This document shows, in pieces, positions 30,976 to 46,251 of a DNA stretch of 64,000 nucleotides (position 1 is its first letter; each line of letters begins with the position of its first letter). A program made the translations under genes and the position numbers. Origin of the DNA: Halarcobacter mediterraneus (GTDB lineage: Bacteria > Campylobacterota > Campylobacteria > Campylobacterales > Arcobacteraceae); NCBI RefSeq assembly GCF_004116625.1, contig NZ_NXIE01000003.1, positions 1 to 64,000 on the forward strand. Reading direction: 5' to 3'. The notes below the pieces were generated by a model. That model was given only the letters and a program-made list of their open reading frames with translations. It was not told the DNA's origin and ran no database searches.

Positions 30976-32631
30976 ATGAACGCATCAGATTTATTTATTA
31001 AAGCGTTAGAAAATGAAGGTGTTGAATATATATTTGGTATTCCTGGAGAAGAAAATTTAGACTTACTAGAAGCACTTAGAAAATCAAAGAAAATCAAGTT
31101 AATCTTAACTAGACATGAACAAGGTGCAGGCTTTATGGCTGCTACTTATGGTAGGTTAACAGGAAAAGTTGGTGTATGTATCTCAACTTTAGGGCCTGGA
31201 GCTACTAACTTTGCTACTGCTGCTGCATATGCACAATTAGGTGCTATGCCAATACTTATGATTACTGGTCAAAAACCAATTAAAAAATCTAAGCAAGGTA
31301 GATTCCAAATCATTGATATCGTTAGAATGATGAGACCAATGACAAAATATGCTAAACAAATTGTAAATGGTAACAATGTTCCTTCTATAGTAAGAGAAGC
31401 ATTTAAGATTGCTACAACTGAAAGACCAGGTGCAGTTCACATTGAGTTCCCTGAAGATATTTCGGCTGAAGAAGATGTAGATGATAATATCTATCCAGTT
31501 CAAGCATTTCAATATCCACAAGCTCATAAAAAAGCTATTGCCGATGCAGTTAAAATGATTGAAAAGGCAGAAAGACCATTGTTATGTATTGGTAATGCTG
31601 CAAATAGAGATAATATCTCTACTGCATTAACTGATTTCGTTAATGAAACTGGTATTCCTTTCTTCTCAACTCAAATGGGTAAAGGTGTTGTTGATGAAAA
31701 CCATAAATTATGTTTATCAACTGCTGCACTTTCAAAAGATGACTTTATCCACTGCGCAATTGATAAAGCTGACTTAATTATTAATGTTGGTCATGATGTA
31801 ATTGAAAAGCCACCATTCTTTATGGAAAATGAAGAAGGAGCTACAAAAGTATTACACATAAACTTCTTTCCATCAGAAGTTGATGATACTTATTTCCCAC
31901 AACTTGATGTAGTAGGTGATATCTCTTCAAGTATAGAAAGAATCACAAATAATATTTCTAAACAAGAACACTGGGACTTTGATTACTATGTAAGATTAGC
32001 AGATGAGATTAGAAATAGACTTTCTAAATACTTTGGTGATACAAGATTCCCTATCTTACCACAAAGAGCAGTTAGAACTATTAGACAAACTTTAACAAGT
32101 GATGATGATATTGTAACACTTGATAATGGTGTTTATAAAATCTGGTTTGCAAGAAACTATAGATGTGCTAAGCCTAACACACTATTATTAGATAATGCTC
32201 TTGCTACAATGGGTGCTGGACTTCCATCTGGTATGGCAGCTAAAATGGTAAACCCTGATTCTAAAGTTGTTGCAGTTTGTGGTGATGGTGGATTCATGAT
32301 GAATGACCAAGAAATGGAAACTGCTGTAAGATTAGGTCTAGATTTAACAGTAATTATTCTAAATGACAACGCATATGGAATGATTAAATGGAAACAAACA
32401 GGTATGGGATTCGATACTTTCGGATTAGATTTAGATAATCCTGATTTTGTTAAATTTGCAGAGTCTTTTGGTGCGAAAGGTTATAGACCAGAATCTTGTG
32501 AAGAGTTTGAAGAAACATTAGAAAAATGTGTAAATTCAAAAGGTGTTCACCTAATTGACTTAGCAGTAGATTATTCACTAAATCATTCTATTTTAAATGA
32601 TTTATTAGCAAATAAAACTTGTATGATATAA
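30976..32631 (+). CDS. Acetolactate synthase family TPP enzyme
   Basis: A 551-residue thiamine diphosphate enzyme. The activating Glu48 is in TRHEQGAGFMAA, the central domain is intact, and the TPP/Mg site is GDGGFMMNDQE followed by LNDNAYGM near residue 470. It resembles the catabolic-type acetolactate synthase large subunit (AlsS/IlvB group), and no small regulatory subunit is adjacent. It sits 29 bases before the first ALDH copy on the same strand, so the two look like one unit and the TPP enzyme may make or use an aldehyde-linked intermediate. It does not look like sulfoacetaldehyde acetyltransferase. The family is clear; the substrate is not. Confidence 0.8.
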   Translation: MNASDLFIKALENEGVEYIFGIPGEENLDLLEALRKSKKIKLILTRHEQGAGFMAATYGRLTGKVGVCISTLGPGATNFATAAAYAQLGAMPILMITGQKPIKKSKQGRFQIIDIVRMMRPMTKYAKQIVNGNNVPSIVREAFKIATTERPGAVHIEFPEDISAEEDVDDNIYPVQAFQYPQAHKKAIADAVKMIEKAERPLLCIGNAANRDNISTALTDFVNETGIPFFSTQMGKGVVDENHKLCLSTAALSKDDFIHCAIDKADLIINVGHDVIEKPPFFMENEEGATKVLHINFFPSEVDDTYFPQLDVVGDISSSIERITNNISKQEHWDFDYYVRLADEIRNRLSKYFGDTRFPILPQRAVRTIRQTLTSDDDIVTLDNGVYKIWFARNYRCAKPNTLLLDNALATMGAGLPSGMAAKMVNPDSKVVAVCGDGGFMMNDQEMETAVRLGLDLTVIILNDNAYGMIKWKQTGMGFDTFGLDLDNPDFVKFAESFGAKGYRPESCEEFEETLEKCVNSKGVHLIDLAVDYSLNHSILNDLLANKTCMI

Positions 32632-32651
32632 TAATAAAAAAACCAAAGTAA

Positions 32652-34061
32652 AGGAAAAGAATGAAAACAATAGAAGTAAAATCACCATATGATGATAGTG
32701 TAGTTGGAGAAGTTCCATTTACAAGTATTGAAGGTGTTGAAAAAGCAATTGATATTGCACATGAAAGATTTTTAGATGTTGATAACTGGATTCCTAAGTT
32801 TAAAAGAGTTGAAATCTTAGAAAAGCTTATGGAAATTATGTCTTCTCAAGTTGAAGAACTTACTATTCTTTGTGCTAGTGAAGGTGGTAAACCTTACATT
32901 GATTCTAAAGTTGAAGTTCAAAGAGCTATCAATGGTGTTAAGATTGCTATTGAGCAAATTGGTTTACAAGAAGGTCATGAAATTGCTATGGGTCATACTG
33001 CTTCATCTGCAAACAGAATGGCTTATACTATGAAAGAACCTATTGGGGTTGTTGCTGCTATCTCTGCATTTAACCATCCTTTTAACTTAGCTATTCACCA
33101 AGTGATCCCTGCTCTTGCTGTTGGTTGTCCTGTTATTATTAGACCTGCTACTCAAACTCCTATGTCTGCTGTTAGACTTATCGAGTTACTTAAAGAAGCT
33201 GGTCTTCCTGATGGTTGGGCTCAAGCTGTTGTTTGTGATAGACAAGGTGGAGAGTTATTAGTTACATCTCCTAAGACTGCTTTCTTTACTTTTATTGGTT
33301 CTGGTCCTGTTGGTTGGTATCTTAATTCTAAATCATCTCCTGGTACTAGATCTGCTTTAGAGCATGGTGGAGTTGCTCCTGTTATTGTTGAGCCTGATGC
33401 TGACATTGATGCTATGATCCCTGATTTAGGTAAAGGTGGTTTTTATCATGCTGGGCAAGTTTGTGTTTCTGTTCAGAGAGTTTATGTTCATGAATCTATT
33501 GTTGATGATGTTGCTTCTAGATTAACTGACTATGCTTCTAAGCTTGTTGTTGGTAACCAATTAGATCCTAAAACTGAAGTTGGTCCACTTATTAACAATG
33601 CTGAAGTTGACAGAGTTGAAGAGTGGGTTAATGAGGCTGTTACTAAAGGTGGTAAAATTTTAACTGGTGGTAAGAGAATCTCTAATTCTTGTTATGAGCC
33701 TACTGTTATTTTAAATCCTTCTGATGACGCTATTGTTTCTCAGAAAGAGGTATTTGGTCCTGTTGTTATTATTTATTCATACAAAGACATTAATGAGGCT
33801 ATTTCTAGAGCTAATTCTTTAGATGTTTCTTTCCAAGCTGCTGTATTCACTAAGAACATTGACACTGCTTTAAAATCTGTTAAGAAATTAAATGGTACTA
33901 CTATTATGGTTAATGATCATACTGCATTTAGAGTTGACTGGATGCCGTTTGGTGGTGCTAAAACTTCTGGTTTAGGTTTAGGTGGTATCCCTGATTCTAT
34001 GAATGAAATGCAAAATCAAAAAATGATGGTTATTAAATCTCCTGAGTTATAATCCTCTTTT
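32652..34061 (+). repeat. Direct repeat A (ALDH unit, copy 1)
   Basis: A 1,410-base segment running from the ribosome site to nine bases past the stop codon. It recurs at 43766-45175 in the same orientation, and by eye there is a single base difference (T at 32699, C at 43813, synonymous). Identity stops abruptly on both sides. Confidence 0.95.
32661..34052 (+). CDS. Aldehyde dehydrogenase, copy 1
   Basis: A 463-residue NAD(P)-dependent aldehyde dehydrogenase. Asn138 (AFNHP), Glu234 (LEHGG) and the nucleophile Cys268 (GQVCVSVQR) are in place. The usual lysine of the cofactor-binding KPA motif is replaced by arginine (RPATQTP, Arg161), and LEHGG replaces the common LELGG, as in lactaldehyde/semialdehyde-type relatives. 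It would oxidise a small aldehyde or semialdehyde to the acid. From about codon 60 it favours T-ending codons (GCT, CCT, GTT, TCT) much more than its neighbours. It follows the TPP enzyme gene and ends in a strong terminator. The protein encoded at 43775-45166 is identical. Confidence 0.88.
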   Translation: MKTIEVKSPYDDSVVGEVPFTSIEGVEKAIDIAHERFLDVDNWIPKFKRVEILEKLMEIMSSQVEELTILCASEGGKPYIDSKVEVQRAINGVKIAIEQIGLQEGHEIAMGHTASSANRMAYTMKEPIGVVAAISAFNHPFNLAIHQVIPALAVGCPVIIRPATQTPMSAVRLIELLKEAGLPDGWAQAVVCDRQGGELLVTSPKTAFFTFIGSGPVGWYLNSKSSPGTRSALEHGGVAPVIVEPDADIDAMIPDLGKGGFYHAGQVCVSVQRVYVHESIVDDVASRLTDYASKLVVGNQLDPKTEVGPLINNAEVDRVEEWVNEAVTKGGKILTGGKRISNSCYEPTVILNPSDDAIVSQKEVFGPVVIIYSYKDINEAISRANSLDVSFQAAVFTKNIDTALKSVKKLNGTTIMVNDHTAFRVDWMPFGGAKTSGLGLGGIPDSMNEMQNQKMMVIKSPEL

Positions 34062-34069
34062 TTTATCTT

Positions 34070-34093
34070 AGGAGGGGTCACCCCTCCTTTTCT
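34070..34093 (+). terminator. Strong terminator after ALDH copy 1
   Basis: A GC-rich perfect stem AGGAGGGG/CCCCTCCT with loop TCA and a T run directly follow the repeat unit. It lies outside the duplicated segment; copy 2 has a different downstream sequence. Confidence 0.88.
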
Positions 34094-34117
34094 TTACTCT
34101 TTTTTTAGCATTAGAGA

Positions 34118-34849
34118 TTAAGACTCATGCATATATCCCATACCATAAATATTTTTTATATGTAAATCTGGTGCTTTTTTTCGTAAACGATAAATAAGAC
34201 TTTTTAAATGTGTTATATCTGCATTTAAATCAAATTCTTCAAACCAAATAATATCTATAAGTTCATCTACTGTACATATTTTCCCATTATTTTCCAATAT
34301 TGTTTCTACAAATCTAATTTCATTTTTTGTTAAGTTTATTGCTTTATTATCTTTAATTAATTTTTTCTTTTTCTTATCCCAAAATAAAGATTCATTTATT
34401 CTTATAATATCTTCATTTTTATTTAAGTTGTTATGATAAATTTGACTACATAATTTAAATATATCTTCTAAAAAAGTTGAATAATCAATAGGTTTTGTAA
34501 AAAACTGATGAATACCTAAATTAACTAATGGTAATAAATAGTTAAATTCATTTCTAGCAGATAAAATTATAACTAATTGATCTTCTTTGATTTTATATAA
34601 AGATTCAACTAATTCCACTCCATCATAATTTGGCATTTTTATATCTGAAATAACTAAATCATAATAGCTATTTGTCTTATTATAATATTCTTTATATTTA
34701 TTAAGAGCATCTAGCCCATCAATAGCTGTTGAGACTTTTGGAAAAATATCTTTGAGTAATTCAGAAAACTCTTTTCTAAAATCTACATCATCTTCTACAA
34801 AAAGTACATTAAGATTTTTAGTATATTTTTTTAATAAGTCATAATCCAT
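34118..34849 (-). CDS. OmpR-type response regulator
   Basis: A 243-residue regulator with a receiver domain (about 12-135) whose acidic pocket is Glu19-Asp20-Asp21, phospho-acceptor Asp69 (ISDIKMP) and Lys in FFTKPID. A winged-helix DNA-binding domain follows (about 155-243; TKNEIRFVE and YGMGYM). It is divergent from the REC-kinase gene with a 180-base shared control region, so the kinases at 35030 and 36248 are its likely partners. Target genes are presumably nearby, such as the TRAP/aminotransferase operon; that is inference. Confidence 0.85.
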   Translation of the reverse strand: MDYDLLKKYTKNLNVLFVEDDVDFRKEFSELLKDIFPKVSTAIDGLDALNKYKEYYNKTNSYYDLVISDIKMPNYDGVELVESLYKIKEDQLVIILSARNEFNYLLPLVNLGIHQFFTKPIDYSTFLEDIFKLCSQIYHNNLNKNEDIIRINESLFWDKKKKKLIKDNKAINLTKNEIRFVETILENNGKICTVDELIDIIWFEEFDLNADITHLKSLIYRLRKKAPDLHIKNIYGMGYMHES

Positions 34850-34870
34850 TAAATCCCTTCAAAATATAGT

Positions 34871-34957
34871 ATTATGAAATATATTAGCATTTTATTTCTT
34901 ATATTTATACATAAATTTGACATTTGAAATAGTTTCATAATATATAACTATTATGAA
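34871..34957. promoter_or_regulatory. ATTATGAA half-sites between regulator and kinase
   Basis: ATTATGAA occurs at 34871-34878 and 34950-34957, and its complement TTCATAAT at 34934-34941. The last two form an inverted repeat with an 8-base centre. A further ACTAC-N6-GTAGT inverted repeat lies at 34985-35000 near the kinase start. These are candidate sites for the divergent response regulator. Confidence 0.35.
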
Positions 34958-35029
34958 TTATATGATACATTTGAATATTATTTGACTACTATTTGGTAGT
35001 ATACTTATAAAAAAGCAAAAAGAGATATC

Positions 35030-36223
35030 ATGTTAGAAAATGAAATTTTAAAAAATATTACTGTTCTTTATGCTGAAGATGAATCTATAATTCAAGAAGG
35101 AATAACTGAAACTTTAAATCTTTTTGAAATAAATGTACTTTGTGCTAAAAATGGACAAGAAGGTTTATCTATTTTTAAAAACTTTTCTGAGAAAATAGAC
35201 TTAATTTTAACAGATATAAAAATGCCTAAACTTGATGGCTTAGGGATGATTGAAGAAATTAGAAAAATAGATAAAAATATCCCTATAATTATTACAACTG
35301 CACACCAAGAAACAAATTTTTTAATGCAGTCTATTGAGTCAAATATTAGTGCTTATGTATTAAAACCCATTGATATTTATAAATTAAAAGAAAGTCTTAT
35401 TAAAGCAATTGAGTCAAAAATATTAAAAGAAGAATTAATAGAAAAAAATAAAAAATTAGAAATAGAAATTCAGAAAAATAAAGAAAATCAGCAAATTATT
35501 GAAACACAATCAAGATTTGCAGCAATGGGAGAGATGATAAATATGATTGCCCACCAATGGAGACAACCTTTAGCATCTATAGGAACTGCTTCATTTAACT
35601 TAAAATATAAACTACTTTCAAATAAATTTAATTTAGAAACTGCCAAAGGGAGAGAAGAACAAACTCTTTTTTTTACACAGAAACTTGATGAAATAGAGTT
35701 TTATGTACAAAATCTCACTACAACAATTGATGATTTTAGAAATTTTTATAAAAGTGACAAAAAACTTATAAATACTAATATTGAAACTCCTATAAAAAAT
35801 GCTTTAAAAATTATTGAAAAAGATTTAGAAGCTAATAACATAAAAGTAGAACTTGATTTAGAAAGTAAAAAAGAAATCCATATTTATGAAAATGAACTTA
35901 TGCATGTCTTTATGAATATGTTAAAAAATGCTCAAGATAAATTTTTAGAAAAAAATATAGACAAGGCAAAAATTCAAATTAAAACTTTTGATACTAAAGA
36001 TAGTGTAGAAATAGAAATTTGTGATAATGGAGGGGAAATAGAAGAAAAAAATCTGAATATTATTTTTGAACCTTATTTTTCAACAAAAAAAGAGAAGAAT
36101 GGAACAGGTATCGGTTTATATATGTCTAAAATTATAATTGAAAATAATCATAAAGGAAATCTTAATGTTTGTAATAAGCAAGGTAATGTTTGCTTTTCAA
36201 TAATATTACATTCTATGATATAA
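35030..36223 (+). CDS. Receiver-histidine kinase hybrid
   Basis: A 397-residue soluble protein with an N-terminal receiver domain (1-125; Asp62 in LTDIKMP, Lys in LKPID), a coiled linker (about 128-160), a HisKA-like H-box with His175 in IAHQWRQPL, and a HATPase domain (N-box near MNMLKNAQD, G-box GTGIGLYMS). There is no membrane segment, so it senses inside the cell or is driven by phosphotransfer to its own receiver. The reverse order (receiver first, kinase last) is common in Campylobacterota. It lies 24 bases upstream of the dual-sensor kinase and probably works with it. Confidence 0.85.
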   Translation: MLENEILKNITVLYAEDESIIQEGITETLNLFEINVLCAKNGQEGLSIFKNFSEKIDLILTDIKMPKLDGLGMIEEIRKIDKNIPIIITTAHQETNFLMQSIESNISAYVLKPIDIYKLKESLIKAIESKILKEELIEKNKKLEIEIQKNKENQQIIETQSRFAAMGEMINMIAHQWRQPLASIGTASFNLKYKLLSNKFNLETAKGREEQTLFFTQKLDEIEFYVQNLTTTIDDFRNFYKSDKKLINTNIETPIKNALKIIEKDLEANNIKVELDLESKKEIHIYENELMHVFMNMLKNAQDKFLEKNIDKAKIQIKTFDTKDSVEIEICDNGGEIEEKNLNIIFEPYFSTKKEKNGTGIGLYMSKIIIENNHKGNLNVCNKQGNVCFSIILHSMI

Positions 36224-36247
36224 TTACAAAAACGCTGGAGCTTTTGA

Positions 36248-38728
36248 TTGAAATTTATTGTTATTATCTCTTTATTTTTTGCAAGCATTTTATTTGCAGA
36301 TTCATCATCCTTAACTGAAGAAGAAAAACAATGGATAAAAAACAATGAAGTACGAATAGGTTTATCTGAACTTTACCCTTTAACTTATATCAATAAAGAT
36401 ACACAAATGGATGGTTTTGTTAGTGATATACTAAAACTAATAATTAAAAAATATAATATTAATACTAAAATAACAAAAGTGAAACAAGCCGCAATTCCAC
36501 TTGCTATTAAAGAAAATAGAATTGATATTGCACCTATAATAAATAATGAAAAGATAGAAAATACTCTAGGTGTCTATTCTTCAGAAATTTTACAAATTAA
36601 AAGAGTTTTATTTGTAAAAAAAGAAGATAAAAGTATAAAATCTTTTAATGATTTAAAAGGTAAGAAAATTGCAGTTGTTAATCAACTAGGAACAATACCT
36701 CACATAAAGAAAAAATATATAAATATAAAAGTAGAAAGAACTAATAATATAAAAGAATCTGTACAAAAACTTTTAGCTGGTGAAGTTAATGCTCTTGTTG
36801 CTTCTCCAATTATTATACAAGAATATTTAGAAGAAAACTTGATTATTGATTTAAAAGCAATGCCCTTAATAACTTTTGAACCATCAAAATTATATTTTTT
36901 TACAAGTAAAGATAAAACATACTTACAATCAATTCTAGAAAAAGGATTAAATTCTATTTCAATAAAAGAAGAAAAAGAACTTTTTGATAAATGGTTTTTA
37001 AAAGATTTAGCTAATTTACCAATAATCTTTACAAAGGAAGAAATTAATTATTTAGATAAAAGAACTAATATTAAATTATGTGTTGACCCAGACTGGATGC
37101 CTTATGAAAAAATAGAAAATCATAAACACATTGGAATTGTTGCAGACTATATGAAAAACTTTGAAAAAAAAATTGGAGTTCCACTAAAACTTATAGAAAC
37201 AAAAGATTGGACACAAGCCCTTGATTTTATGAAAACTAGAAGATGTGATGTTTTGTCTTTTGTAATGGATATAGAATCTAGACGTGGATATATGAACTTT
37301 ACAAAGCCATATGTTACAGCACCTTTAGTTTTAGTTACAAAAAGAAATGTTAGTTTTATTAGTGATTTAAAAGATTTAACCAATAAAAGAATTGGTATTC
37401 AAAAGAATTTTGCTTATAATGAAATAATAAGAAACAAATATCCAGACCTTGAAATAGTAGATGTTGAACATTTAAGAGCTGGATTAAAAAAAGTTGAGAG
37501 AGGAGAAATATTTGGACAAGTTACTACCCATCTAAATGTTGCATATGCTTTTCAAGAAGAGTTTTATGGTAGTTTACAAATATCAGGTAAATTTGATGAG
37601 AGATGGCAACTATCAGTTGGAATAAGAAACGATGACCCCATACTCTTAAATATCTTTGAAAAAGTAGTTAACTCAATAAGTGAAGAAACTAGACAAAAAA
37701 TTATTAGCAAATGGGTAACAGTTAAATATGAAAAAAGTATTGACTATAAACTCTTTTGGAGTATTATAGGATTTTTATCATTTATTCTTTTATTAATATT
37801 ATATACTTATCTTGTTCAACACAGATATATAAAAAAACTGAAAAAAGCAAAAGAAGAAATAGAAGTATTAAATAGTACATTAGAAGATAAAGTGCAACTT
37901 AGAACTCGAGAATTAGAACTTTCTAATAAAAAACTTAAACTTAAAACTTCAGAACTTGAGAATTTAAATAATAACTTAGATACAAAAATAAAAGAAGAAA
38001 TAAATAATAGAAAAAAACAAGAGCAACTTTTAATACAACAATCAAAACTTGCAGAAATGGGAGAAATGATAAGTATGATTGCACATCAATGGAGACAACC
38101 TTTAAGTGCATTAAGTACTATAATTCAAAATATTCATTTACGTCACTCTCTTAACAAACTAGATAAAGAGTACTTAGATAAACAAAGAGTTTTAAGTAAT
38201 GCTCTTACAGAGAAAATGTCAATTACAATTGATGATTTTAGAAACTTTTTTAAGCCAAACAAAGAAAAACACACTTTTTCTATAAAAGATGCTATTCATC
38301 AAACAATATTTCTTATTGATGATAGTTTTAAAAGTCATAATATTAAAATTGAAAGTGAGATTTCTGATGATATAACAATTTATGGTTTTAAAAATGAACT
38401 TTCTCAAGTTTTATTAAATATTCTTACTAATTCAAAGGATGCATTTTTAGAAAAGAACATAGAAAGTCCATATATAAAAATAAAAACTAAACACCTTCAA
38501 ACCCATATTAAAATATTGATTTCTGATAATGCTGGTGGAATTAATGAATCAATAATAAATAAAATTTTTGAACCTTATTTTACAACTAAAGACAGCTATA
38601 ATGGAACAGGTCTTGGTTTATATATGAGTAAAATGATTATAGAACAAAATATGCAAGGACAGCTAAGTGCTAAAAATATTCAAGACGGTGTTCAATTTTC
38701 TATTTATATTCCTATTAACTTAAAATAA
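36248..38728 (+). CDS. Histidine kinase with two periplasmic binding domains
   Basis: An 826-residue sensor kinase: signal sequence, two consecutive family 3 solute-binding-type domains (about 25-255 and 265-490), a membrane helix (about 500-522), a coiled coil (about 530-595), H-box His613 in IAHQWRQPL, and a HATPase domain ending in GTGLGLYMSK. The start is TTG at 36248, with GGAG seven bases upstream and a clean signal peptide behind it. The two binding domains suggest sensing of amino acids or organic acids. It has no receiver of its own, so it should signal through the receiver-kinase upstream or the response regulator at 34118. Confidence 0.87.
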   Translation: MKFIVIISLFFASILFADSSSLTEEEKQWIKNNEVRIGLSELYPLTYINKDTQMDGFVSDILKLIIKKYNINTKITKVKQAAIPLAIKENRIDIAPIINNEKIENTLGVYSSEILQIKRVLFVKKEDKSIKSFNDLKGKKIAVVNQLGTIPHIKKKYINIKVERTNNIKESVQKLLAGEVNALVASPIIIQEYLEENLIIDLKAMPLITFEPSKLYFFTSKDKTYLQSILEKGLNSISIKEEKELFDKWFLKDLANLPIIFTKEEINYLDKRTNIKLCVDPDWMPYEKIENHKHIGIVADYMKNFEKKIGVPLKLIETKDWTQALDFMKTRRCDVLSFVMDIESRRGYMNFTKPYVTAPLVLVTKRNVSFISDLKDLTNKRIGIQKNFAYNEIIRNKYPDLEIVDVEHLRAGLKKVERGEIFGQVTTHLNVAYAFQEEFYGSLQISGKFDERWQLSVGIRNDDPILLNIFEKVVNSISEETRQKIISKWVTVKYEKSIDYKLFWSIIGFLSFILLLILYTYLVQHRYIKKLKKAKEEIEVLNSTLEDKVQLRTRELELSNKKLKLKTSELENLNNNLDTKIKEEINNRKKQEQLLIQQSKLAEMGEMISMIAHQWRQPLSALSTIIQNIHLRHSLNKLDKEYLDKQRVLSNALTEKMSITIDDFRNFFKPNKEKHTFSIKDAIHQTIFLIDDSFKSHNIKIESEISDDITIYGFKNELSQVLLNILTNSKDAFLEKNIESPYIKIKTKHLQTHIKILISDNAGGINESIINKIFEPYFTTKDSYNGTGLGLYMSKMIIEQNMQGQLSAKNIQDGVQFSIYIPINLK

Positions 38729-39003
38729 AATTTTCTTAAAAAAGATACTTTTGTTTATTTTTTAAACTATACTTTTTATATATAGTATATTTTTTTATCA
38801 TATCTAAACAAATAGATAAACCCTTACTTATTTATCATATTAAAAAGAGATTATATGGTTACTTTTTCACTACTTTTTTCAGTAATAATTAAATATCTAG
38901 AATATTAGTATGGTTAAATTATTAAGACTTTATAGGAAAGTAGTTTAGATTAAATATTTTAGAGAAAAACAAAAAAATATTTAAATAAAGAAGAAGGCTT
39001 GAA
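38729..39003. other. 275-base intergenic region upstream of gabT
   Basis: Very A/T-rich, with no gene that can be supported. A short ATG frame of 17 codons (from about 38854) has no convincing ribosome site. No GG-N10-GC sigma-54 element was found. Presumably it holds the promoter of the gabT-TRAP operon. Confidence 0.5.
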
Positions 39004-40284
39004 ATGAATAACAAAGATTTACAAGAAAGAAAAAACAAAGTTTTCGCAAGAGGTCAAGGAAATGCTTATCCAGTATATGTAAAGGAAGCAAAGAATTCTG
39101 AAATATGGGATGTTGAAGGAAATAGATTTATTGATTTTGGTACAGGTATTGCTGTTTGTAACACAGGACATAGTCATCCAAAGATTATTGAAGCAGTAAA
39201 AAATCAAATTGAAAAATTTAGTCATACTTGTGTAATGGTAAATCCATACGAAGTAGCAGTTGAATTAGCAGAAAAATTAACAAAATTAGCTCCAGGAGAA
39301 ACTGAAAAAAAAGCAATTTTTGTTACAACTGGAGCAGAAGCTGTTGAAAACTGTGTAAAAATTGCAAGAGCACATACAGGAAGAAGAGGAGTTATCGCAT
39401 TTAATGGTGGTTTTCATGGTAGAACAAATCTTACAATGGCACTAACTGGAAAAACAATGCCATATAAAAAAGGTTTTGGACCATTCCCTGCTGAAATTTA
39501 TCACTTACCATATCCAACAGAGTTTAATAATACATCTGTAAAAGATACATTAGTAGCACTTAAAAATCTTTTTAAAGCTGATATTCTACCTGAAGATGTA
39601 GCTGCAATTATAATTGAGCCTATCCAAGGAGAAGGTGGTTTTTATCAAACTCCTGTTGAATTATTAAAAGAACTAAGAGCTATTTGTGATGAGCATGGAA
39701 TTATTTTAATTTTAGATGAAATTCAAACAGGTTTTGCAAGAACTGGAAAAATGTTTTGTACGGAATACTCAGGAATTGAACCTGATTTAATGACTATGGC
39801 AAAAGGTATTGCTGGTGGTTACCCATTATCGGGTGTAGTTGGAAAAGCTGAAATTATGGATACTCCAATACCTGGTGGACTTGGCGGAACTTATGGTGGT
39901 TCACCAGTTGCTTGTGCTGCAGGTTTAGCTGTATTAGATGTAATTGAAGAAGAAAACTTAATTGAGAGAGCAAATGAGGTTGGTGCAATTTTTAGTAAAA
40001 GACTAAATGATTTAAAAGCAAAATTTCCAGACTTAATTACTGATGTAAGAAATAAAGGTGCAATGATTGCACTTGAACTTATGAAAGATGGAGATATTTA
40101 TAATCCAAATGTAGAATTAACTAAAGCAATTACTGCAAATGCAGTTGAGCATGGATTAGTTTTATTATCTTGTGGATTTAATAGTAATGTTATTAGATTT
40201 TTACCAGCACTTACTATTAGTGATGAAACATTAAATGAAGGACTTGATAAATTTGATGAACTTTTTACAAGTTTAGTGAAGTAA
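39004..40284 (+). CDS. gabT: GabT-like 4-aminobutyrate aminotransferase
   Basis: This 426-residue class III aminotransferase is exactly the length of E. coli GabT. The PLP lysine is Lys267 (MAKGIAGGYP) and the cofactor aspartate Asp238 (LDEIQTG). The E. coli GABA-site residues have counterparts: Arg140 in FHGR, Glu210 in QGEGGF and Arg398 near the C-terminus. It should transfer the amino group of GABA or a similar omega-amino acid (beta-alanine or taurine are alternatives) to 2-oxoglutarate, giving a semialdehyde. It heads a plus-strand run with a TRAP transporter and an aldehyde dehydrogenase, which fits import, transamination and oxidation. Confidence 0.82.
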   Translation: MNNKDLQERKNKVFARGQGNAYPVYVKEAKNSEIWDVEGNRFIDFGTGIAVCNTGHSHPKIIEAVKNQIEKFSHTCVMVNPYEVAVELAEKLTKLAPGETEKKAIFVTTGAEAVENCVKIARAHTGRRGVIAFNGGFHGRTNLTMALTGKTMPYKKGFGPFPAEIYHLPYPTEFNNTSVKDTLVALKNLFKADILPEDVAAIIIEPIQGEGGFYQTPVELLKELRAICDEHGIILILDEIQTGFARTGKMFCTEYSGIEPDLMTMAKGIAGGYPLSGVVGKAEIMDTPIPGGLGGTYGGSPVACAAGLAVLDVIEEENLIERANEVGAIFSKRLNDLKAKFPDLITDVRNKGAMIALELMKDGDIYNPNVELTKAITANAVEHGLVLLSCGFNSNVIRFLPALTISDETLNEGLDKFDELFTSLVK

Positions 40285-40298
40285 GTTAACTTATATAT

Positions 40299-40346
40299 AG
40301 GAGGTGTATTCTGAAATATCTATCTATGGAAGCTTTAGAGAAATAA
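40299..40346 (+). promoter_or_regulatory. Orphan Shine-Dalgarno and possible leader peptide
   Basis: AGGAGGTG (40299-40306) is a near-perfect anti-16S match, but no gene with an ATG follows at the right distance. Six bases after GGAGG lies CTG (40311), opening a frame of 11 codons that ends at TAA 40344-40346. An in-frame ATG lies at 40326. It sits in the 110 bases between gabT and the TRAP binding protein gene, which has its own AAGGAG. Confidence 0.3.
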
Positions 40347-40394
40347 GTTTTCATTTATTTTATGAAAAACAAAAACTAAAAAGGAGACGAACTA

Positions 40395-41420
40395 ATGTTA
40401 AAATTATTTTCAAGCATTAAAAGAAATTTAATGACAACATCAATTGTTGCATTATTAGGAATTATGTTTATGGTTGATACTGCAACAGCAGCTCAACATA
40501 ACTGGAGATTTTCAAATCTATATGGTAGAGGTACTGCTTTTGGTGAGCTTTATCAACAATTAGCAAAAGATATTGAAAAAAATACAAATGGTGAAGTAAA
40601 AGTACAAGTACTTTTTTCAGGTGAAGGTGTTGGGGCATCAGGACTATTAGGAGCAACTAAATCTGGTCTGATTACTATGGCTGCACCATTTCAATCAATG
40701 CATGCTGGAGAATTACCTGCAGGTATTGTTGAAATTGGACTTCCAGGGGGAACTGCAGATACTGATGAACTATATAAACTTTTCCATGAAGATGGTTGGG
40801 ATAAAATACTTAAAAAAGCTTACGGATCTCAAGGTTTAACTTGGTTAGAACCATATATTCAACCTCCTGTATATATTATTACAAAAAAACCAATTGAATC
40901 AGTTGAAGACTTCAAAGGTTTAAAAATAAGAGCTCCTGGAGCATATGGTAAGTTTTTAAGAAAACTAGGAGCTTCACCTGTTTCTTTAGCTTGGAGTGAG
41001 ATTTATACTAGTTTGGCTACTGGTGTTATTGATGGTTCAATTGGTTCTAATATGATTGACCATAGAGATGGAAACCACGTTGAAGTTGCTAAATACATGT
41101 ATAAACTACCACTTGCTGGTGCACAAGTTTTACCAATTGTTGTTAATAGAAATGCTTGGAACAAACTTAATGATGCTCAAAAAAAAGGTGTTTATGAAGC
41201 TACTGTAGCTCATGCAAAAGCTCAATTAAAAATGGGTAGAAAATGGGAAAAAGAAGCTGTTGCACAAATGGAAGCAAAAGGTCTTAAATGGTCTCCTGAA
41301 CCATCAAAAGCTGATAAAGAAGCTTGGAAAGAAGCAGGAGCTGGTTTATGGGAAGAGTATTCATCAAAAGACAAATATAGTAAACAATTAATTGATGTTT
41401 TGAAAAAAAATGCTCAATAA
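40395..41420 (+). CDS. dctP: TRAP transporter substrate-binding protein
   Basis: A 341-residue DctP-family protein with a signal peptide cleaved near residue 33 (TATAA-QHNW). The conserved arginine of LKIRAPG, which binds the ligand carboxylate in this family, is at about residue 180, followed by the typical WSEIYTSLATGVIDGS stretch. It captures an organic acid or zwitterion in the periplasm for the DctQM permease encoded next. Together with gabT and ALDH the likely cargo is an amino acid-like or 2-oxo acid compound; the true ligand cannot be read from sequence. Confidence 0.88.
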   Translation: MLKLFSSIKRNLMTTSIVALLGIMFMVDTATAAQHNWRFSNLYGRGTAFGELYQQLAKDIEKNTNGEVKVQVLFSGEGVGASGLLGATKSGLITMAAPFQSMHAGELPAGIVEIGLPGGTADTDELYKLFHEDGWDKILKKAYGSQGLTWLEPYIQPPVYIITKKPIESVEDFKGLKIRAPGAYGKFLRKLGASPVSLAWSEIYTSLATGVIDGSIGSNMIDHRDGNHVEVAKYMYKLPLAGAQVLPIVVNRNAWNKLNDAQKKGVYEATVAHAKAQLKMGRKWEKEAVAQMEAKGLKWSPEPSKADKEAWKEAGAGLWEEYSSKDKYSKQLIDVLKKNAQ

Positions 41421-41437
41421 TTAGTTTAGGCTAAATT

Positions 41438-41983
41438 ATGTTAAAAAAAAGCTTACAAATATTTTGTATAGTAATTGACAAAATTATTATGTGGTTTGGC
41501 AAAGTGGCATCATATCTGATGCCTCTTCTTGCCTTTATAGTTGTATATGAAGTAATTGCAAGATATATTTTTGATGCACCAACAATTTGGGCCTATGATT
41601 TATCTTTGTTCTTATTTGGTTATATTGCAGCTTTAGGAGGAGCTTATGCTCAACAGAAGAGATCTCATATTAATGTAGATATCTTATATTTATCAGTTTC
41701 TCCTAAAGTTAAAAATATTTTCAACATCATATCTTTCTCTCTTGGAGTCTTTTTCTTAATAATCATATTTTATATGGGTGTTACAAAATTTAATGAAGCA
41801 TTAGAATATGGATATAGAAGACAAAGTGAATGGGCACCACCAATGTGGCATTTTTGGCTTATGTTATGTGTTGCAAGTGTTTTGTTTAGTCTACAATTGA
41901 TTAGAGATATTATAACTGAGAGCTATAATTTAATTACTGGTTCTCCATTAGTTGATGAAAAGGAGATAAAAGATGAGTGTTGA
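41438..41983 (+). CDS. dctQ: TRAP transporter small permease subunit
   Basis: A 181-residue protein with four membrane helices, including the YEVIARYIFDAPTIWAYDLS region typical of DctQ subunits. It partners the large permease, which starts inside its last codons (11-base overlap), in a sodium-driven uptake system. Confidence 0.88.
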   Translation: MLKKSLQIFCIVIDKIIMWFGKVASYLMPLLAFIVVYEVIARYIFDAPTIWAYDLSLFLFGYIAALGGAYAQQKRSHINVDILYLSVSPKVKNIFNIISFSLGVFFLIIIFYMGVTKFNEALEYGYRRQSEWAPPMWHFWLMLCVASVLFSLQLIRDIITESYNLITGSPLVDEKEIKDEC

Positions 41984-43298
41984 ATTATTAACTGTTATCT
42001 TATTATTTTGCATTTTAATTTTCTTTGCATTAGGAGCACCAGTAGGATTAGCACTAGGTGGAATAGCAATGCTTGTCGGATACTTCACTTGGGGAGATGG
42101 AATTTTTAATGTTATTCCAACAACTGTTGAAGCAACATTTTTTAGCTTCATTTTATTAGCAATCCCTCTTTATATATATATGGGACAACTTCTAACCCAC
42201 TCCGGAATTGGTGATGCAATGTTTAAAGCAAGTCAAATGATGATTGGAAGAATTAGAGGTTCTCTTGCTATTAGTGTAGTTTTTATTTGTTCTATGATTG
42301 GAGCTATGGTTGGTATTATTGGAGCAGGAATTATGAGTTCTGGTAGTATTGCTTTAAAGCCAATGCTTGATGCAGGATACAATAGAAGATTAGCACTAGG
42401 TACAATTATGGCAGGTGGGGCATTAGGAATTTTAATTCCTCCAAGTATTCCAATGATTATGTTTGCAGCCTCTACACAAAATTCTGTAGGAAGAATGTTT
42501 TTAGGAGCTATGGTTCCTGCACTTGTAACTATTACTTTACTAATTGCTTATATAGTAATAAGTTCAAGATTGAACCCAGAAAATGCACCTTTACTTAGTG
42601 AAAACAATCCTGGTTTACCTGAATTAAAAGGTAAAGAAAAATTAAGAGTATTTAGAGATGGTTTTCTGTCTATAGGTTTGATTTTTGTTGTACTAGGAAG
42701 TATCATAAGTGGTATAGCAACTCCAACTGAATCAGGGGCATTGGGGGTTGCAGGAGCTATACTACTTGCTATATTTTTTAAACGTTTTAAATTAGGAATG
42801 ATAAAAACAGTAGGTTTACAAACAGGTATTCTTGTAAGTGTAGCAATGTGGATCATTTTAGGTGCTTCTGTTTTTAGTAATTTTCATTTATTAATGGGAA
42901 TTCAAGGAATGATTGCTAACTTTACTCATGGACTAGATTTACCTCCAATTATGATTATAATAATGTTTCAATTGATAATGCTATTTTTAGGATTTATTAT
43001 TGATGAATTTATTATTGTATTAATGTGTGCTCCTTTATTCACACCAATTGCAGTATCTCTTGGATATGATCCGATTTGGTTTGGTGTTTTAATGATTATT
43101 AATATTTTAATTGCTGTTCAAACCCCTCCTTACGGCTTTGCACTATTTTATTTAAAAGGTATTGCACCACCTGAGGTTGGAATGGGAGAAATATATAAAT
43201 CAGTTACACCATTTATTTTAGTTAATTTTACAGTCCTAGTTATTTGTATGGTTTTTCCAGAAATTGTTTTATGGTTACCAGACAAAATTATGGGATAA
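41973..43298 (+). CDS. dctM: TRAP transporter large permease subunit
   Basis: This 441-residue DctM subunit with about 12 helices has the re-entrant region ILIPPSIPMIMFA and the matching second-half region VQTPPYGFALFYL. It moves substrate with sodium ions across the inner membrane. It is followed nine bases later by a universal stress protein gene, an arrangement known from other TRAP operons such as the ectoine system with TeaD. Confidence 0.92.
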   Translation: MSVELLTVILLFCILIFFALGAPVGLALGGIAMLVGYFTWGDGIFNVIPTTVEATFFSFILLAIPLYIYMGQLLTHSGIGDAMFKASQMMIGRIRGSLAISVVFICSMIGAMVGIIGAGIMSSGSIALKPMLDAGYNRRLALGTIMAGGALGILIPPSIPMIMFAASTQNSVGRMFLGAMVPALVTITLLIAYIVISSRLNPENAPLLSENNPGLPELKGKEKLRVFRDGFLSIGLIFVVLGSIISGIATPTESGALGVAGAILLAIFFKRFKLGMIKTVGLQTGILVSVAMWIILGASVFSNFHLLMGIQGMIANFTHGLDLPPIMIIIMFQLIMLFLGFIIDEFIIVLMCAPLFTPIAVSLGYDPIWFGVLMIINILIAVQTPPYGFALFYLKGIAPPEVGMGEIYKSVTPFILVNFTVLVICMVFPEIVLWLPDKIMG

Positions 43299-43307
43299 AG
43301 GAAAAAA

Positions 43308-43745
43308 ATGTTCAAAAATATTTTAGTACCATTACATTTAGATTATACAGATAATCATGAAAAACTTTTTGCAGGGGCATTGGAAATTCTAGATAGAGAT
43401 GAAGGTAAACTTTCACTACTTTATGTTAATGAAAATAAAGCCCATGGTTCTGTTTATCCAATTTTTGATGAAGAAAATGAAAAGCACTATAATCATAGTG
43501 CTTTTGTAGAATTAAAAAGAATTGCAAAGAAACACTCTTTACCAGAGGATAAAATATCTTTTAATATTAGAGATGGTTCAGCCCATAGAGAAATACTTGA
43601 AGAAGCAAGAAGAATTAAAAGTGATGCAATTGTAATGATGGCAACAAAACCTGGACTTAGTAGTTATTTTATTAGTAGTACACCTGAACGTGTTGTAAGA
43701 CATGCTGCTTGTTCAGTTTTTGTAATTAGACTTACAGAATATTAA
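43308..43745 (+). CDS. Universal stress protein family (UspA)
   Basis: A 145-residue UspA-fold protein with N-terminal NILVPLHLD, a central alpha/beta fold and a C-terminal segment that is not a perfect match to the ATP-binding G-2x-G-9x-G motif (GLSSYFISSTPERVV), so nucleotide binding is uncertain. Located in the TRAP operon, it probably modulates the transporter, as TeaD does for TeaABC. It is separated by 29 bases from ALDH copy 2. Confidence 0.82.
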   Translation: MFKNILVPLHLDYTDNHEKLFAGALEILDRDEGKLSLLYVNENKAHGSVYPIFDEENEKHYNHSAFVELKRIAKKHSLPEDKISFNIRDGSAHREILEEARRIKSDAIVMMATKPGLSSYFISSTPERVVRHAACSVFVIRLTEY

Positions 43746-43765
43746 AATTTAAATTATAAATTAAG

Positions 43766-45175
43766 AGGAAAAGAATGAAAACAATAGAAGTAAAATCACC
43801 ATATGATGATAGCGTAGTTGGAGAAGTTCCATTTACAAGTATTGAAGGTGTTGAAAAAGCAATTGATATTGCACATGAAAGATTTTTAGATGTTGATAAC
43901 TGGATTCCTAAGTTTAAAAGAGTTGAAATCTTAGAAAAGCTTATGGAAATTATGTCTTCTCAAGTTGAAGAACTTACTATTCTTTGTGCTAGTGAAGGTG
44001 GTAAACCTTACATTGATTCTAAAGTTGAAGTTCAAAGAGCTATCAATGGTGTTAAGATTGCTATTGAGCAAATTGGTTTACAAGAAGGTCATGAAATTGC
44101 TATGGGTCATACTGCTTCATCTGCAAACAGAATGGCTTATACTATGAAAGAACCTATTGGGGTTGTTGCTGCTATCTCTGCATTTAACCATCCTTTTAAC
44201 TTAGCTATTCACCAAGTGATCCCTGCTCTTGCTGTTGGTTGTCCTGTTATTATTAGACCTGCTACTCAAACTCCTATGTCTGCTGTTAGACTTATCGAGT
44301 TACTTAAAGAAGCTGGTCTTCCTGATGGTTGGGCTCAAGCTGTTGTTTGTGATAGACAAGGTGGAGAGTTATTAGTTACATCTCCTAAGACTGCTTTCTT
44401 TACTTTTATTGGTTCTGGTCCTGTTGGTTGGTATCTTAATTCTAAATCATCTCCTGGTACTAGATCTGCTTTAGAGCATGGTGGAGTTGCTCCTGTTATT
44501 GTTGAGCCTGATGCTGACATTGATGCTATGATCCCTGATTTAGGTAAAGGTGGTTTTTATCATGCTGGGCAAGTTTGTGTTTCTGTTCAGAGAGTTTATG
44601 TTCATGAATCTATTGTTGATGATGTTGCTTCTAGATTAACTGACTATGCTTCTAAGCTTGTTGTTGGTAACCAATTAGATCCTAAAACTGAAGTTGGTCC
44701 ACTTATTAACAATGCTGAAGTTGACAGAGTTGAAGAGTGGGTTAATGAGGCTGTTACTAAAGGTGGTAAAATTTTAACTGGTGGTAAGAGAATCTCTAAT
44801 TCTTGTTATGAGCCTACTGTTATTTTAAATCCTTCTGATGACGCTATTGTTTCTCAGAAAGAGGTATTTGGTCCTGTTGTTATTATTTATTCATACAAAG
44901 ACATTAATGAGGCTATTTCTAGAGCTAATTCTTTAGATGTTTCTTTCCAAGCTGCTGTATTCACTAAGAACATTGACACTGCTTTAAAATCTGTTAAGAA
45001 ATTAAATGGTACTACTATTATGGTTAATGATCATACTGCATTTAGAGTTGACTGGATGCCGTTTGGTGGTGCTAAAACTTCTGGTTTAGGTTTAGGTGGT
45101 ATCCCTGATTCTATGAATGAAATGCAAAATCAAAAAATGATGGTTATTAAATCTCCTGAGTTATAATCCTCTTTT
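43766..45175 (+). repeat. Direct repeat A (ALDH unit, copy 2)
   Basis: The second copy of the 1,410-base unit at 32652-34061, same orientation, offset 11,114 bases. The only mismatch noticed is C at 43813 against T at 32699. Homologous recombination between the copies could delete or amplify the segment that lies between. Confidence 0.95.
43775..45166 (+). CDS. Aldehyde dehydrogenase, copy 2
   Basis: The protein is identical over all 463 residues to the one at 32661-34052, with the same catalytic Cys268, Glu234 and Asn138, and the Arg161 substitution for the cofactor-site lysine. In this position it ends the gabT-dctPQM-usp run, so it is the obvious enzyme for oxidising the semialdehyde made by GabT. 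The first copy serves the TPP-enzyme unit. Its upstream sequence differs from copy 1 beyond the shared AGGAAAAGA ribosome site, so the two copies are under separate control. Confidence 0.88.
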   Translation: MKTIEVKSPYDDSVVGEVPFTSIEGVEKAIDIAHERFLDVDNWIPKFKRVEILEKLMEIMSSQVEELTILCASEGGKPYIDSKVEVQRAINGVKIAIEQIGLQEGHEIAMGHTASSANRMAYTMKEPIGVVAAISAFNHPFNLAIHQVIPALAVGCPVIIRPATQTPMSAVRLIELLKEAGLPDGWAQAVVCDRQGGELLVTSPKTAFFTFIGSGPVGWYLNSKSSPGTRSALEHGGVAPVIVEPDADIDAMIPDLGKGGFYHAGQVCVSVQRVYVHESIVDDVASRLTDYASKLVVGNQLDPKTEVGPLINNAEVDRVEEWVNEAVTKGGKILTGGKRISNSCYEPTVILNPSDDAIVSQKEVFGPVVIIYSYKDINEAISRANSLDVSFQAAVFTKNIDTALKSVKKLNGTTIMVNDHTAFRVDWMPFGGAKTSGLGLGGIPDSMNEMQNQKMMVIKSPEL

Positions 45176-45193
45176 ACTTATTTTTACTCTATT

Positions 45194-45225
45194 GAGAAGA
45201 GGAACTCTTTTTTCTCCCTCTTCTC
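45194..45225 (+). terminator. Possible terminator after ALDH copy 2
   Basis: GAGAAGAGG (45194-45202) pairs with CCTCTTCTC (45217-45225); an alternative shorter hairpin is followed by a T run at 45208-45213. Weaker than the terminator of copy 1. Confidence 0.4.
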
Positions 45226-45253
45226 TCTTACCTTACTTTTTTAGGATTAAAAA

Positions 45254-46219
45254 TTGAATCAAATCAAAACATTTTTTAAAAAATATGAAAATAGTCCCAC
45301 TTATTTACTTATAATTGGACTTATTGCTGCACTTTTTTTCTCTGCTACCTTTCTAATAAATAGAGCAATATCTCTTGATGGTGGGCATTGGTATTGGTCT
45401 GCATCCTTACGTTTTTTATTTACTATAATTTTTATATCAATTGGATTTATTTTTTTTAAAGGTTTCTCATATTTTAAATTAGTAATGAATGAATATATAA
45501 AAAACTTTAAATTCTGGAGTATAGCAGGAAGCATAGGGTTTGGTTTCTTCTATTCTTTAATTTGTTATGCTTCATATTATTCTCCAGCTTGGATTATTGC
45601 TACTACATTTCAATTTACAATTCTAGCCTCATTGTTTGTTCTTTCATTTTTTGGTAAAAAACTATCAAAGAAAATTTGGGCAATAACATTAATGATTTTT
45701 ATCGGTGTAACCCTTGTAAATATAAGTCATTTTAATATTAATAATCTTGAGCTTTTACTCCTTGGTTTTTTACCAGTTTTAATTGCTGCATTTTCATTTC
45801 CTATTGGAAATCAAATGGTTTGGGAAGAGAAAGAAAGAAGAAAAAATAATAATGAAGATATTTCAATAATAAAAAATAGTTTTGTAAAAATCTTTTTACT
45901 TACACTAGGAAGTTTACCTTTATGGATAGTTTTATTCTTTATTACTGATTCACAAATACCTAGTAAAGAACAATATATAAATGTTGCTTTAATTACAATA
46001 TTTTCTGGAATTATTGCAACTTCACTTTTTTTATATGCCCGCTCTTTATGTAATACACCCCACAAGTTAGTACTTGTAGACTCTACTCAATCAGGAGATG
46101 TTTTCTTTTCTTTATTAGGAGAATTAATATTATTAAATGTTGCACTTCCTAATACAATAGGAATATTTGGAATAATAATAACCGTTGTAGGTCTATTATT
46201 TTTAATAAGACTAAAATAA
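45254..46219 (+). CDS. DMT-superfamily exporter, multidrug-type
   Basis: A 321-residue integral membrane protein with about ten helices and two EamA/EmrE-like halves, matching the family named multidrug resistance efflux transporter. The start is TTG at 45254 after AGGAT, and the first helix follows at a normal distance. It would export small molecules by proton exchange; the substrate is unknown. It is convergent with the nuclease gene and shares its terminator. It is not obviously part of the upstream catabolic run. Confidence 0.7.
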   Translation: MNQIKTFFKKYENSPTYLLIIGLIAALFFSATFLINRAISLDGGHWYWSASLRFLFTIIFISIGFIFFKGFSYFKLVMNEYIKNFKFWSIAGSIGFGFFYSLICYASYYSPAWIIATTFQFTILASLFVLSFFGKKLSKKIWAITLMIFIGVTLVNISHFNINNLELLLLGFLPVLIAAFSFPIGNQMVWEEKERRKNNNEDISIIKNSFVKIFLLTLGSLPLWIVLFFITDSQIPSKEQYINVALITIFSGIIATSLFLYARSLCNTPHKLVLVDSTQSGDVFFSLLGELILLNVALPNTIGIFGIIITVVGLLFLIRLK

Positions 46220-46220
46220 A

Positions 46221-46251
46221 ATTTAAAAGAGGGAACTTTCCTCTTTTAAAT
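46221..46251. terminator. Bidirectional terminator between convergent genes
   Basis: A 12-base perfect stem (46221-46232 with 46240-46251) with a 7-base loop, between the exporter stop and the nuclease stop codon, which it overlaps. Confidence 0.75.

Follow-up and report, generated by a model that had tools for sequence, protein, structure and literature searches.

Why should two copies of one catabolic gene, lying about 11 kb apart, agree almost base for base? Here we address this question for a 64,000-nucleotide stretch of the Halarcobacter mediterraneus genome (contig NZ_NXIE01000003.1, positions 1 to 64,000; hereafter the window), in which two direct copies of an aldehyde dehydrogenase (ALDH) gene flank a block of sensor, aminotransferase (GabT), TRAP transporter and universal stress protein (Usp) genes, hereafter the module. 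We consider it likely that two gene sets meet at one ALDH: a resident pair, formed by an acetolactate-synthase-type (ALS) gene and ALDH, and an accessory sensor-GabT-TRAP-Usp-ALDH module directly behind it. The two ALDH copies evolve in concert; under this reading the module would come and go through the repeat that they form, and one enzyme would serve both gene sets.

The window contains a single strong repeat when searched by BLAST against itself (99.79% identity over 1,418 columns, both arms in the same direction; Table 1), all remaining repeats being much shorter. Its length excludes a chance origin. Compared gene against gene, the two copies each encode 463 residues and differ at one of 1,392 bases, a synonymous T/C at gene position 39; their starts are 11,114 bp apart. 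Identity runs from position −15/−16, at the ribosome site, to nine bases 3' of the stop codon. The initial annotation of the window, made from its letters, had described such a pair with these borders and with no insertion sequence nearby. Its description is confirmed by the self-comparison and the base-by-base alignment that it had called for, and a Pfam and NCBIfam scan of the 17 proteins of 26.4–50.3 kb named neither a transposase nor an integrase.

The second copy might in principle be an assembler's duplicate of one real gene. Short reads resolve repeats this long poorly, and five draft genomes of relatives (G006, G015, G001, G009 and G118) break their contigs at ALDH, as a collapsed repeat would. 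An artefact is nonetheless unlikely, to the point that we give it next to no weight, because one 450-kb contig (of a 2.83-Mb assembly in 29 contigs) holds both copies, which differ by one base and have different flanks, and because the same two-copy arrangement is found in four single-contig relatives (G002, G010, G007 and G088). At least one base difference also separates the copies in five of the six pairs described below.

Concerted evolution of the ALDH pair

The locus was compared across 104 genomes of the family, with thresholds of E ≤ 1e-150 for ALDH, E ≤ 1e-200 for the sensor kinase and E ≤ 1e-130 for the module-type GabT; G000 denotes the window's own genome and g1 is the genus label used in the comparison. 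ALDH was found in 75 of the 104, as a single match in 68 and as two copies in seven (G000, G002, G007, G010, G017, G088 and G090). In all of these seven except G017 the copies flank the module, and these six pairs, each on a single contig, span three genera. In G017 the copies lie 0.9 Mb apart and the module adjoins one of them.

Within each genome the flanking copies are almost indistinguishable. Coding mismatches number one in G000, two in G002, five in G010, one in G090 and none in G088, and the G007 pair has one mismatch over a shared stretch that begins about ten bases inside the gene. Over the six pairs the start of identity ranges from about 33 bases 5' of the start codon to about 10 bases 3' of it, and its end from 6 to 68 bases past the stop codon. 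The closest ALDH from another genome, among the 80 rows compared, is 86.7–96.7% identical at the DNA level. The two copies are sisters in each of the six genomes in a tree of the 80 rows, and site patterns for all 15 pairs of these genomes give 61–361 concerted sites and no ortholog-retained site. The paralogs are thus closer within the genome than to orthologs in six of six resolved flanking pairs, and the positions of the copies are syntenic in G000, G002, G010, G007, G088 and G090. By contrast, the distant pair of G017 is not homogenised: its copies are 79 and 90% identical to the window ALDH and fall in different clades. Near-identity within each of six genomes, divergence from one genome to the next and borders at the gene ends show that the flanking ALDH pairs evolve in concert. 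The standard cause of such a pattern is gene conversion, which is presumably at work here too.

In rpoB, G002 and G010 are sisters (98.5%), and they have in common the gene order, a doubled DctP and both flanks. Between them, 61 sites are concerted and none is retained, against two and five differences within the genomes. The codon comparison shows that synonymous sites are homogenised too, with 51 synonymous and 5 other differences between the genomes, and 2 and 4 synonymous and 0 and 1 other differences within them. These results bear on a recent duplication, in which ALDH was copied lately in this lineage and the identity of the copies reflects their youth. One mismatch in 1,392 bp is what such an event would leave, and the window alone demands nothing further; the initial annotation had offered recent copying or gene conversion as alternatives. 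However, six genomes from three genera have this pair at equivalent positions, and even where the arrangement is shared, as in G002 and G010, the copies in each genome have changed together. The comparison therefore favours conversion, and recency alone is very improbable.

Monophyly of the g1 genes was also tried on the ALDH tree and was set aside, with a log-likelihood difference (dlnL) of 524 but a p value in the approximately unbiased (AU) test of only 0.047. A narrower test of the rpoB group G002, G010, G007, G014 and G011, named after the trees had been seen, was clearer (dlnL 273).

Presence, absence and movement of the module

The module-type GabT is present in 13 of the 104 genomes, comprising the seven two-copy genomes, the drafts G006, G015, G001 and G009, and G118 and G106. 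In those four drafts the outer ends of the module contigs fall within ALDH; in G118 the module and ALS are on separate contigs, with ALDH again cut at contig ends. The sensor kinase is present in 17 genomes: the 13 GabT carriers, the highly fragmented G077, and G030, G113 and G119, in which no module-type GabT adjoins it. Single-copy genomes that could be mapped away from contig ends have ALS directly upstream of ALDH in 28 of 28 cases (68 single-match genomes overall). The distribution of the module is patchy. At the empty sites that were mapped, a single ALDH stands behind ALS, so the unit gained or lost is the module plus one ALDH.

Filled and empty sites can be aligned directly. The empty site of G029 matches the filled site of G090 on the left at 94.0% through ALS, ALDH and 62 bases past the stop codon, and on the right, where the match begins about 20 bases ahead of ALDH, at 92.8%. 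Each alignment includes ALDH, so the single G029 gene matches both G090 copies. The empty sites of G004 and G012 behave in the same way against the window, and the stretch in excess over G004 spans about 34055–46220. The initial annotation had suggested that the copies could recombine to delete, circularise or amplify 11.1 kb. The stretch missing from G004 takes in copy 2 and the adjacent EmrE-like gene. Deletion itself gains indirect support, as close relatives show the single-ALDH form expected after it; the event was not seen.

How the module moves was approached through trees. Its presence changes state at least 11 times on an rpoB tree built from 30 chosen genomes, 14 of them taken as carriers (the G106 row is a long branch of 904 aa only and the G091 row has 718 aa) and on an ALS tree of 75. 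The g1 modules do not form one clade, either in the sensors (dlnL 106) or in GabT-DctQ-DctM-Usp (dlnL 233, 12 genomes), and G090 is joined, for instance, by G001 in the sensor tree and by G007 in that of the transporter part. Transfer of the module between genera is thus supported by these trees. Such traffic might suggest that each lineage gained the module independently, through ALDH recombination with a fresh duplicate, and that no continuing conversion is needed. The crossing of genus borders by module genes and the number of presence changes fit this account. However, a foreign module ALDH should give hybrid, unequal copies unless these were converted, and G002 and G010 have the filled state, order and flanks in common yet show concerted change. 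We regard repeated insertion without conversion as unlikely, if deserving of some weight, and favour concerted evolution of a pair through which the module would also move.

Other accounts of the movement were dropped. The locus differs from an integrase-driven genomic island, with its integrase and short att repeats: the repeat is a whole gene, and no integrase is found among the 17 scanned window proteins, the extra open reading frames (ORFs) of other carriers being outside that scan. Carriage of the module by plasmids was set aside, as a plasmid collection gave no match to the sensor kinase at E ≤ 1e-100 (phage and viral collections were not searched). ALS was rejected as a species tree, since g1 is not one clade in it (dlnL 126, p 0.00025) and the G010 ALS conflicts with rpoB. 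A separate module gain in G000 and G006, considered from their 96% identity in ALS and 78% in the sensors, was abandoned once rpoB gave 94.9%.

Table 1 Features of the ALDH locus, in window coordinates
Feature	Position	Strand	Evidence
ALS-type thiamine diphosphate (ThDP) enzyme (acetolactate-synthase type), resident partner of ALDH copy 1	30976..32631	+	NF006187 863.8 bits, cut-off 509
ALDH copy 1, 463 aa, resident site	32661..34052	+	PF00171 417.8 bits; one mismatch to copy 2
Left direct repeat (BLAST), ribosome site to 9 bp past stop	32645..34061	+	self-BLAST
Response regulator with DNA-binding domain, module gene 1	34118..34849	-	PF00072, PF00486
Receiver and histidine kinase, module gene 2	35030..36223	+	PF00072, PF02518
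Sensor kinase with two periplasmic SBP_bac_3 stretches, module gene 3	36248..38728	+	PF00497 (two stretches), PF02518
GabT, 4-aminobutyrate aminotransferase type	39004..40284	+	TIGR00700 578.5 bits, cut-off 506.65
TRAP transporter DctP, DctQ, DctM	40395..43298	+	PF03480, PF04290, PF06808
Usp, final module gene ahead of copy 2	43308..43745	+	PF00582
Right direct repeat (BLAST)	43758..45175	+	self-BLAST
ALDH copy 2, 463 aa, closes GabT-TRAP-Usp row	43775..45166	+	one mismatch to copy 1; order recurs outside family
EmrE-like transporter, came or went with module	45254..46219	+	PF13536; not in G004 empty site
Stretch without counterpart in empty-site relative G004 (module, one ALDH, EmrE)	34055..46220	.	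G000/G004 alignment blocks

The order of genes between the ALDH copies (Table 1) is alike in the six genomes with flanking pairs, save for extra genes in some. A second DctP-like gene lies ahead of GabT in G002, G010 and G007 (L038 8613–9626, L039 8909–9925 and L042 9292–10305), a long extra ORF of 569–576 aa lies between the sensor kinase and GabT in G006, G118 and G017, a 377-aa ORF lies between DctM and Usp in G002, and an ORF of 170–172 aa precedes copy 2 in G002, G010, G007 and G006. The extra ORFs of carriers are found at L083 4742–6929, L080 5248–8092, L085 10434–14774 and L038 13925–15160 and 15595–16358. The two kinase genes of the window share diverged stretches, 77–80% identical in DNA (35439–35572 with 37977–38104, and 36017–36142 with 38519–38644), as if their kinase parts had a common origin.

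On the 3' side of copy 2, the EmrE-like gene is followed by a beta-CASP nuclease and sucCD. The EmrE-like gene stands after the module ALDH in G017, and after the ALDH 3' end on contig C40 of G118. The nuclease (46246–47592) scores 396 bits with the type VII Cas14 model, against a cut-off of 800, and 303 bits with aCPSF1, whose cut-off is 580; it is present beside sucCD in some close relatives and absent in others. Two neighbouring dynamin-family genes (PF00350; 26404–30758) lie 5' of ALS, and such genes are likewise found near ALS in several g1 genomes.

One dehydrogenase between two gene sets

Outside the family the two contexts of ALDH are found apart. Sulfurospirillum arcachonense, which has one ALDH of this type, and G292 carry GabT-DctPQM-Usp-ALDH without ALS in the mapped stretch, and G437 carries ALS-ALDH with no module in the mapped stretch; G355 shows neither context in the part that was mapped, and the G249 sequence is a fragment. 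Because the two contexts occur apart, ALDH belongs with both gene sets.

To judge from its relatives and neighbours, the ALDH probably oxidises succinate semialdehyde in both operons. The closest solved chain is moss ALDH21 (E 3.1e-88), which has been described as an NADP-dependent succinate-semialdehyde dehydrogenase (SSADH) (PMC7823795). GabT passes the cut-off of the 4-aminobutyrate (GABA) transaminase model, the stricter PRK models shown not being reached. Among relatives of GabT, about 50 of 60 loci (60 of the 80 found; counted by reading), almost all gammaproteobacterial, follow a different ALDH, 29–35% identical.

The window ALS might be a 2-oxoglutarate decarboxylase of the cyanobacterial kind, which we put forward as a lead only. 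In an ungapped comparison anchored at GDG, which does not make Glu50 comparable, it agrees with the reported MaKGD residues K386, A408, M410, D462, Y465, K471 and Y531 and disagrees at Q254, V382, A384, H385 and L467. M410, D462 and K471 are also seen by eye in the closest solved chain, 13bb, which is named acetolactate synthase. The NF006187 model passes its cut-off in two of 14 control genomes (not named), a count that has no bearing on the cyanobacterial comparison. If the ALDH and ALS assignments both hold, two routes meet at succinate semialdehyde.

A mechanism can be proposed on this basis. ALS would decarboxylate 2-oxoglutarate to succinate semialdehyde, GabT would form the same compound by transaminating imported GABA or a like amino acid, and identical copies would be tolerated or favoured because one dehydrogenase would serve both pathways. 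Recombination between the copies would convert them. The same homology would allow clean loss of the module by recombination of copy 1 with copy 2, and would let a locus with a single ALDH take up an ALDH-module-ALDH stretch or a circle of the module.

Several observations weigh against this reading. A topology uniting the second copies in one clade scored dlnL 510 in the AU test, but the four pairs with identical proteins were not constrained in it, and the result bears only on G010 copy 2, G007 copy 2 and the module copy of G017. Residual mismatches lie near the gene ends, in a test picked after the sites had been seen and of a strength that varies with the sites counted (p 0.0001 for nine sites, 0.0025 with the central G007 site added and 0.036 with one per genome). 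In G118 the copies occupy separate contigs, yet 250 of 255 bases match in their 3' parts, the 5' part not being comparable; closeness is therefore not a strict rule for homogenisation. Entry through ALDH and loss by recombination between copies predict the same product, which assemblies cannot separate, and in the assemblies no excised circle, deletion or amplification was seen. The sensor groupings (G000,(G006,G015)), weakly supported, and (G007,(G002,G010)) fit rpoB, and because of this partial agreement part of the patchiness within g1 is vertical descent plus loss. As for the enzyme, the window ALDH clears the cut-off of none of the 25 best NCBIfam models shown, reaching 311.5 bits of the 646.35 needed with the SSADH model TIGR01780, and a third ALDH of the window genome scores 458 bits with an NADP-SSADH model (cut-off 730). 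In a cyanobacterial SSADH, Arg139 is reported to bind succinate semialdehyde (PMC7510979); the corresponding position, placed by eye, seems to be His in the window ALDH and in ALDH21.

Third-base composition and comparison with known systems

The window ALDH genes are also unusual in composition. T makes up 87% of their fourfold third positions, compared with 64% in the next of 34 long ORFs and 69% in tuf of the same genome. T-rich ALDH genes in g1 (0.72–0.87) are found in the carriers G000, G010, G006, G002 and G007 and in the non-carrier G014, and the carrier G001 has ordinary T (0.49). In G088 and G090 the gene is T-poor (0.33 and 0.21) and A-rich, as it is in the non-carrier G029 (0.22); the non-carrier G023 is T-poor (0.32). 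Polarised fourfold changes number 43 A-to-T against 2 T-to-A on the G006 line and 51 against 0 on the G000 line, and the adjoining ALS has no A-to-T trend on either. Because 43 A-to-T sites are common to both, G000 and G006 are not independent in the bias test. T-richness in the G000 and G002 lineages is probably convergent, since their ALDH proteins differ at 18% of residues. A Mann–Whitney test of bias in 8 carriers against 64 others gave p 0.0006, ignoring kinship and taking one copy per genome from carriers with a whole assembled ALDH, with the G017 rows left out.

Two causes were considered and discarded. Background fourfold T/(T+A) is 0.43–0.62 on either strand over 40 segments of 20 kb from four genomes, save one value of 0.32 and strands without long ORFs; an effect of the replication strand was dropped on these data, in which replichores were not resolved. 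Translational selection alone was rejected: tuf is T-rich throughout (0.58–0.69 in 15 of 15 genomes), whereas the paired ALDH is T-rich in most g1 genomes but A-rich in G088 and G090. Neither strand composition nor tuf-like codon choice explains a bias that runs in both directions.

More tentatively, a whole metabolic gene may serve as an integrase-free address. ALDH-module-ALDH would enter and leave by ordinary homologous recombination, the host would always keep a working ALDH, and continual conversion would match the arms to the host; the directional synonymous drift of the paired genes, A to T in g1 and toward A in two other genera, with most unpaired orthologs lacking it, could be a trace of biased conversion. 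We hold this combination to be possible but rather doubtful. If the address model is true, it would explain how an accessory pathway moves between genera without an integrase and leaves the host gene whole, and the third-base bias, were it linked to pairing, would offer a view of directional conversion bias in bacteria. The locus in any case provides a natural series of filled and empty sites, in which one gene supplies the main homology and through which conversion, clean loss and transfer can be studied, and a warning, as draft assemblies separate this module from its flanks.

Concerted evolution of gene pairs is already known. In Acinetobacter ADP1, catIJF and pcaIJF provide one enzyme set for two converging catabolic operons and are kept identical by conversion, although none of the papers listed in our literature search tied them to gene conversion; both operons are resident there, whereas the window module comes and goes. 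In Salmonella, conversion is reported to homogenise tufA and tufB, two near-identical genes of 1,185 nt, with identity stopping at the gene borders (PMC5485169). As far as that account goes, the ALDH copies resemble them in being near-identical genes of similar size on one chromosome with identity ending at gene borders, and differ in being catabolic enzyme genes, direct and 11–14 kb apart, that flank a patchy catabolic module, with conversion presumed here from sequence comparison. Long-lasting, recurrent concerted evolution in prokaryotes has been described for 26 genes, including amo, hao and psbD, of which 22 encode members of complexes (PMC6053082). Going by that description, these genes and ALDH have in common that paralogs are closer within than between species, recurrently across species and with synteny as evidence; unlike them, ALDH varies in copy count with the module, and the words 'aldehyde' and 'dehydrogenase' are absent from the main text of that paper. 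The cyanobacterial bypass of 2-oxoglutarate decarboxylase and SSADH employs a ThDP enzyme also counted as an acetolactate synthase, according to the reports on it (PMC10418658, PMC4224347). As described there, it resembles the window in placing an ALS-like ThDP enzyme alongside a candidate SSADH; the window ALS, by contrast, is a candidate decarboxylase compared at few positions. A literature search, with most subscription journals outside its scope, gave no paper joining Arcobacteraceae with gene conversion, and none on this locus among the papers listed. Set beside these systems, what seems to be new is a converted gene tied to a module that comes and goes around it.

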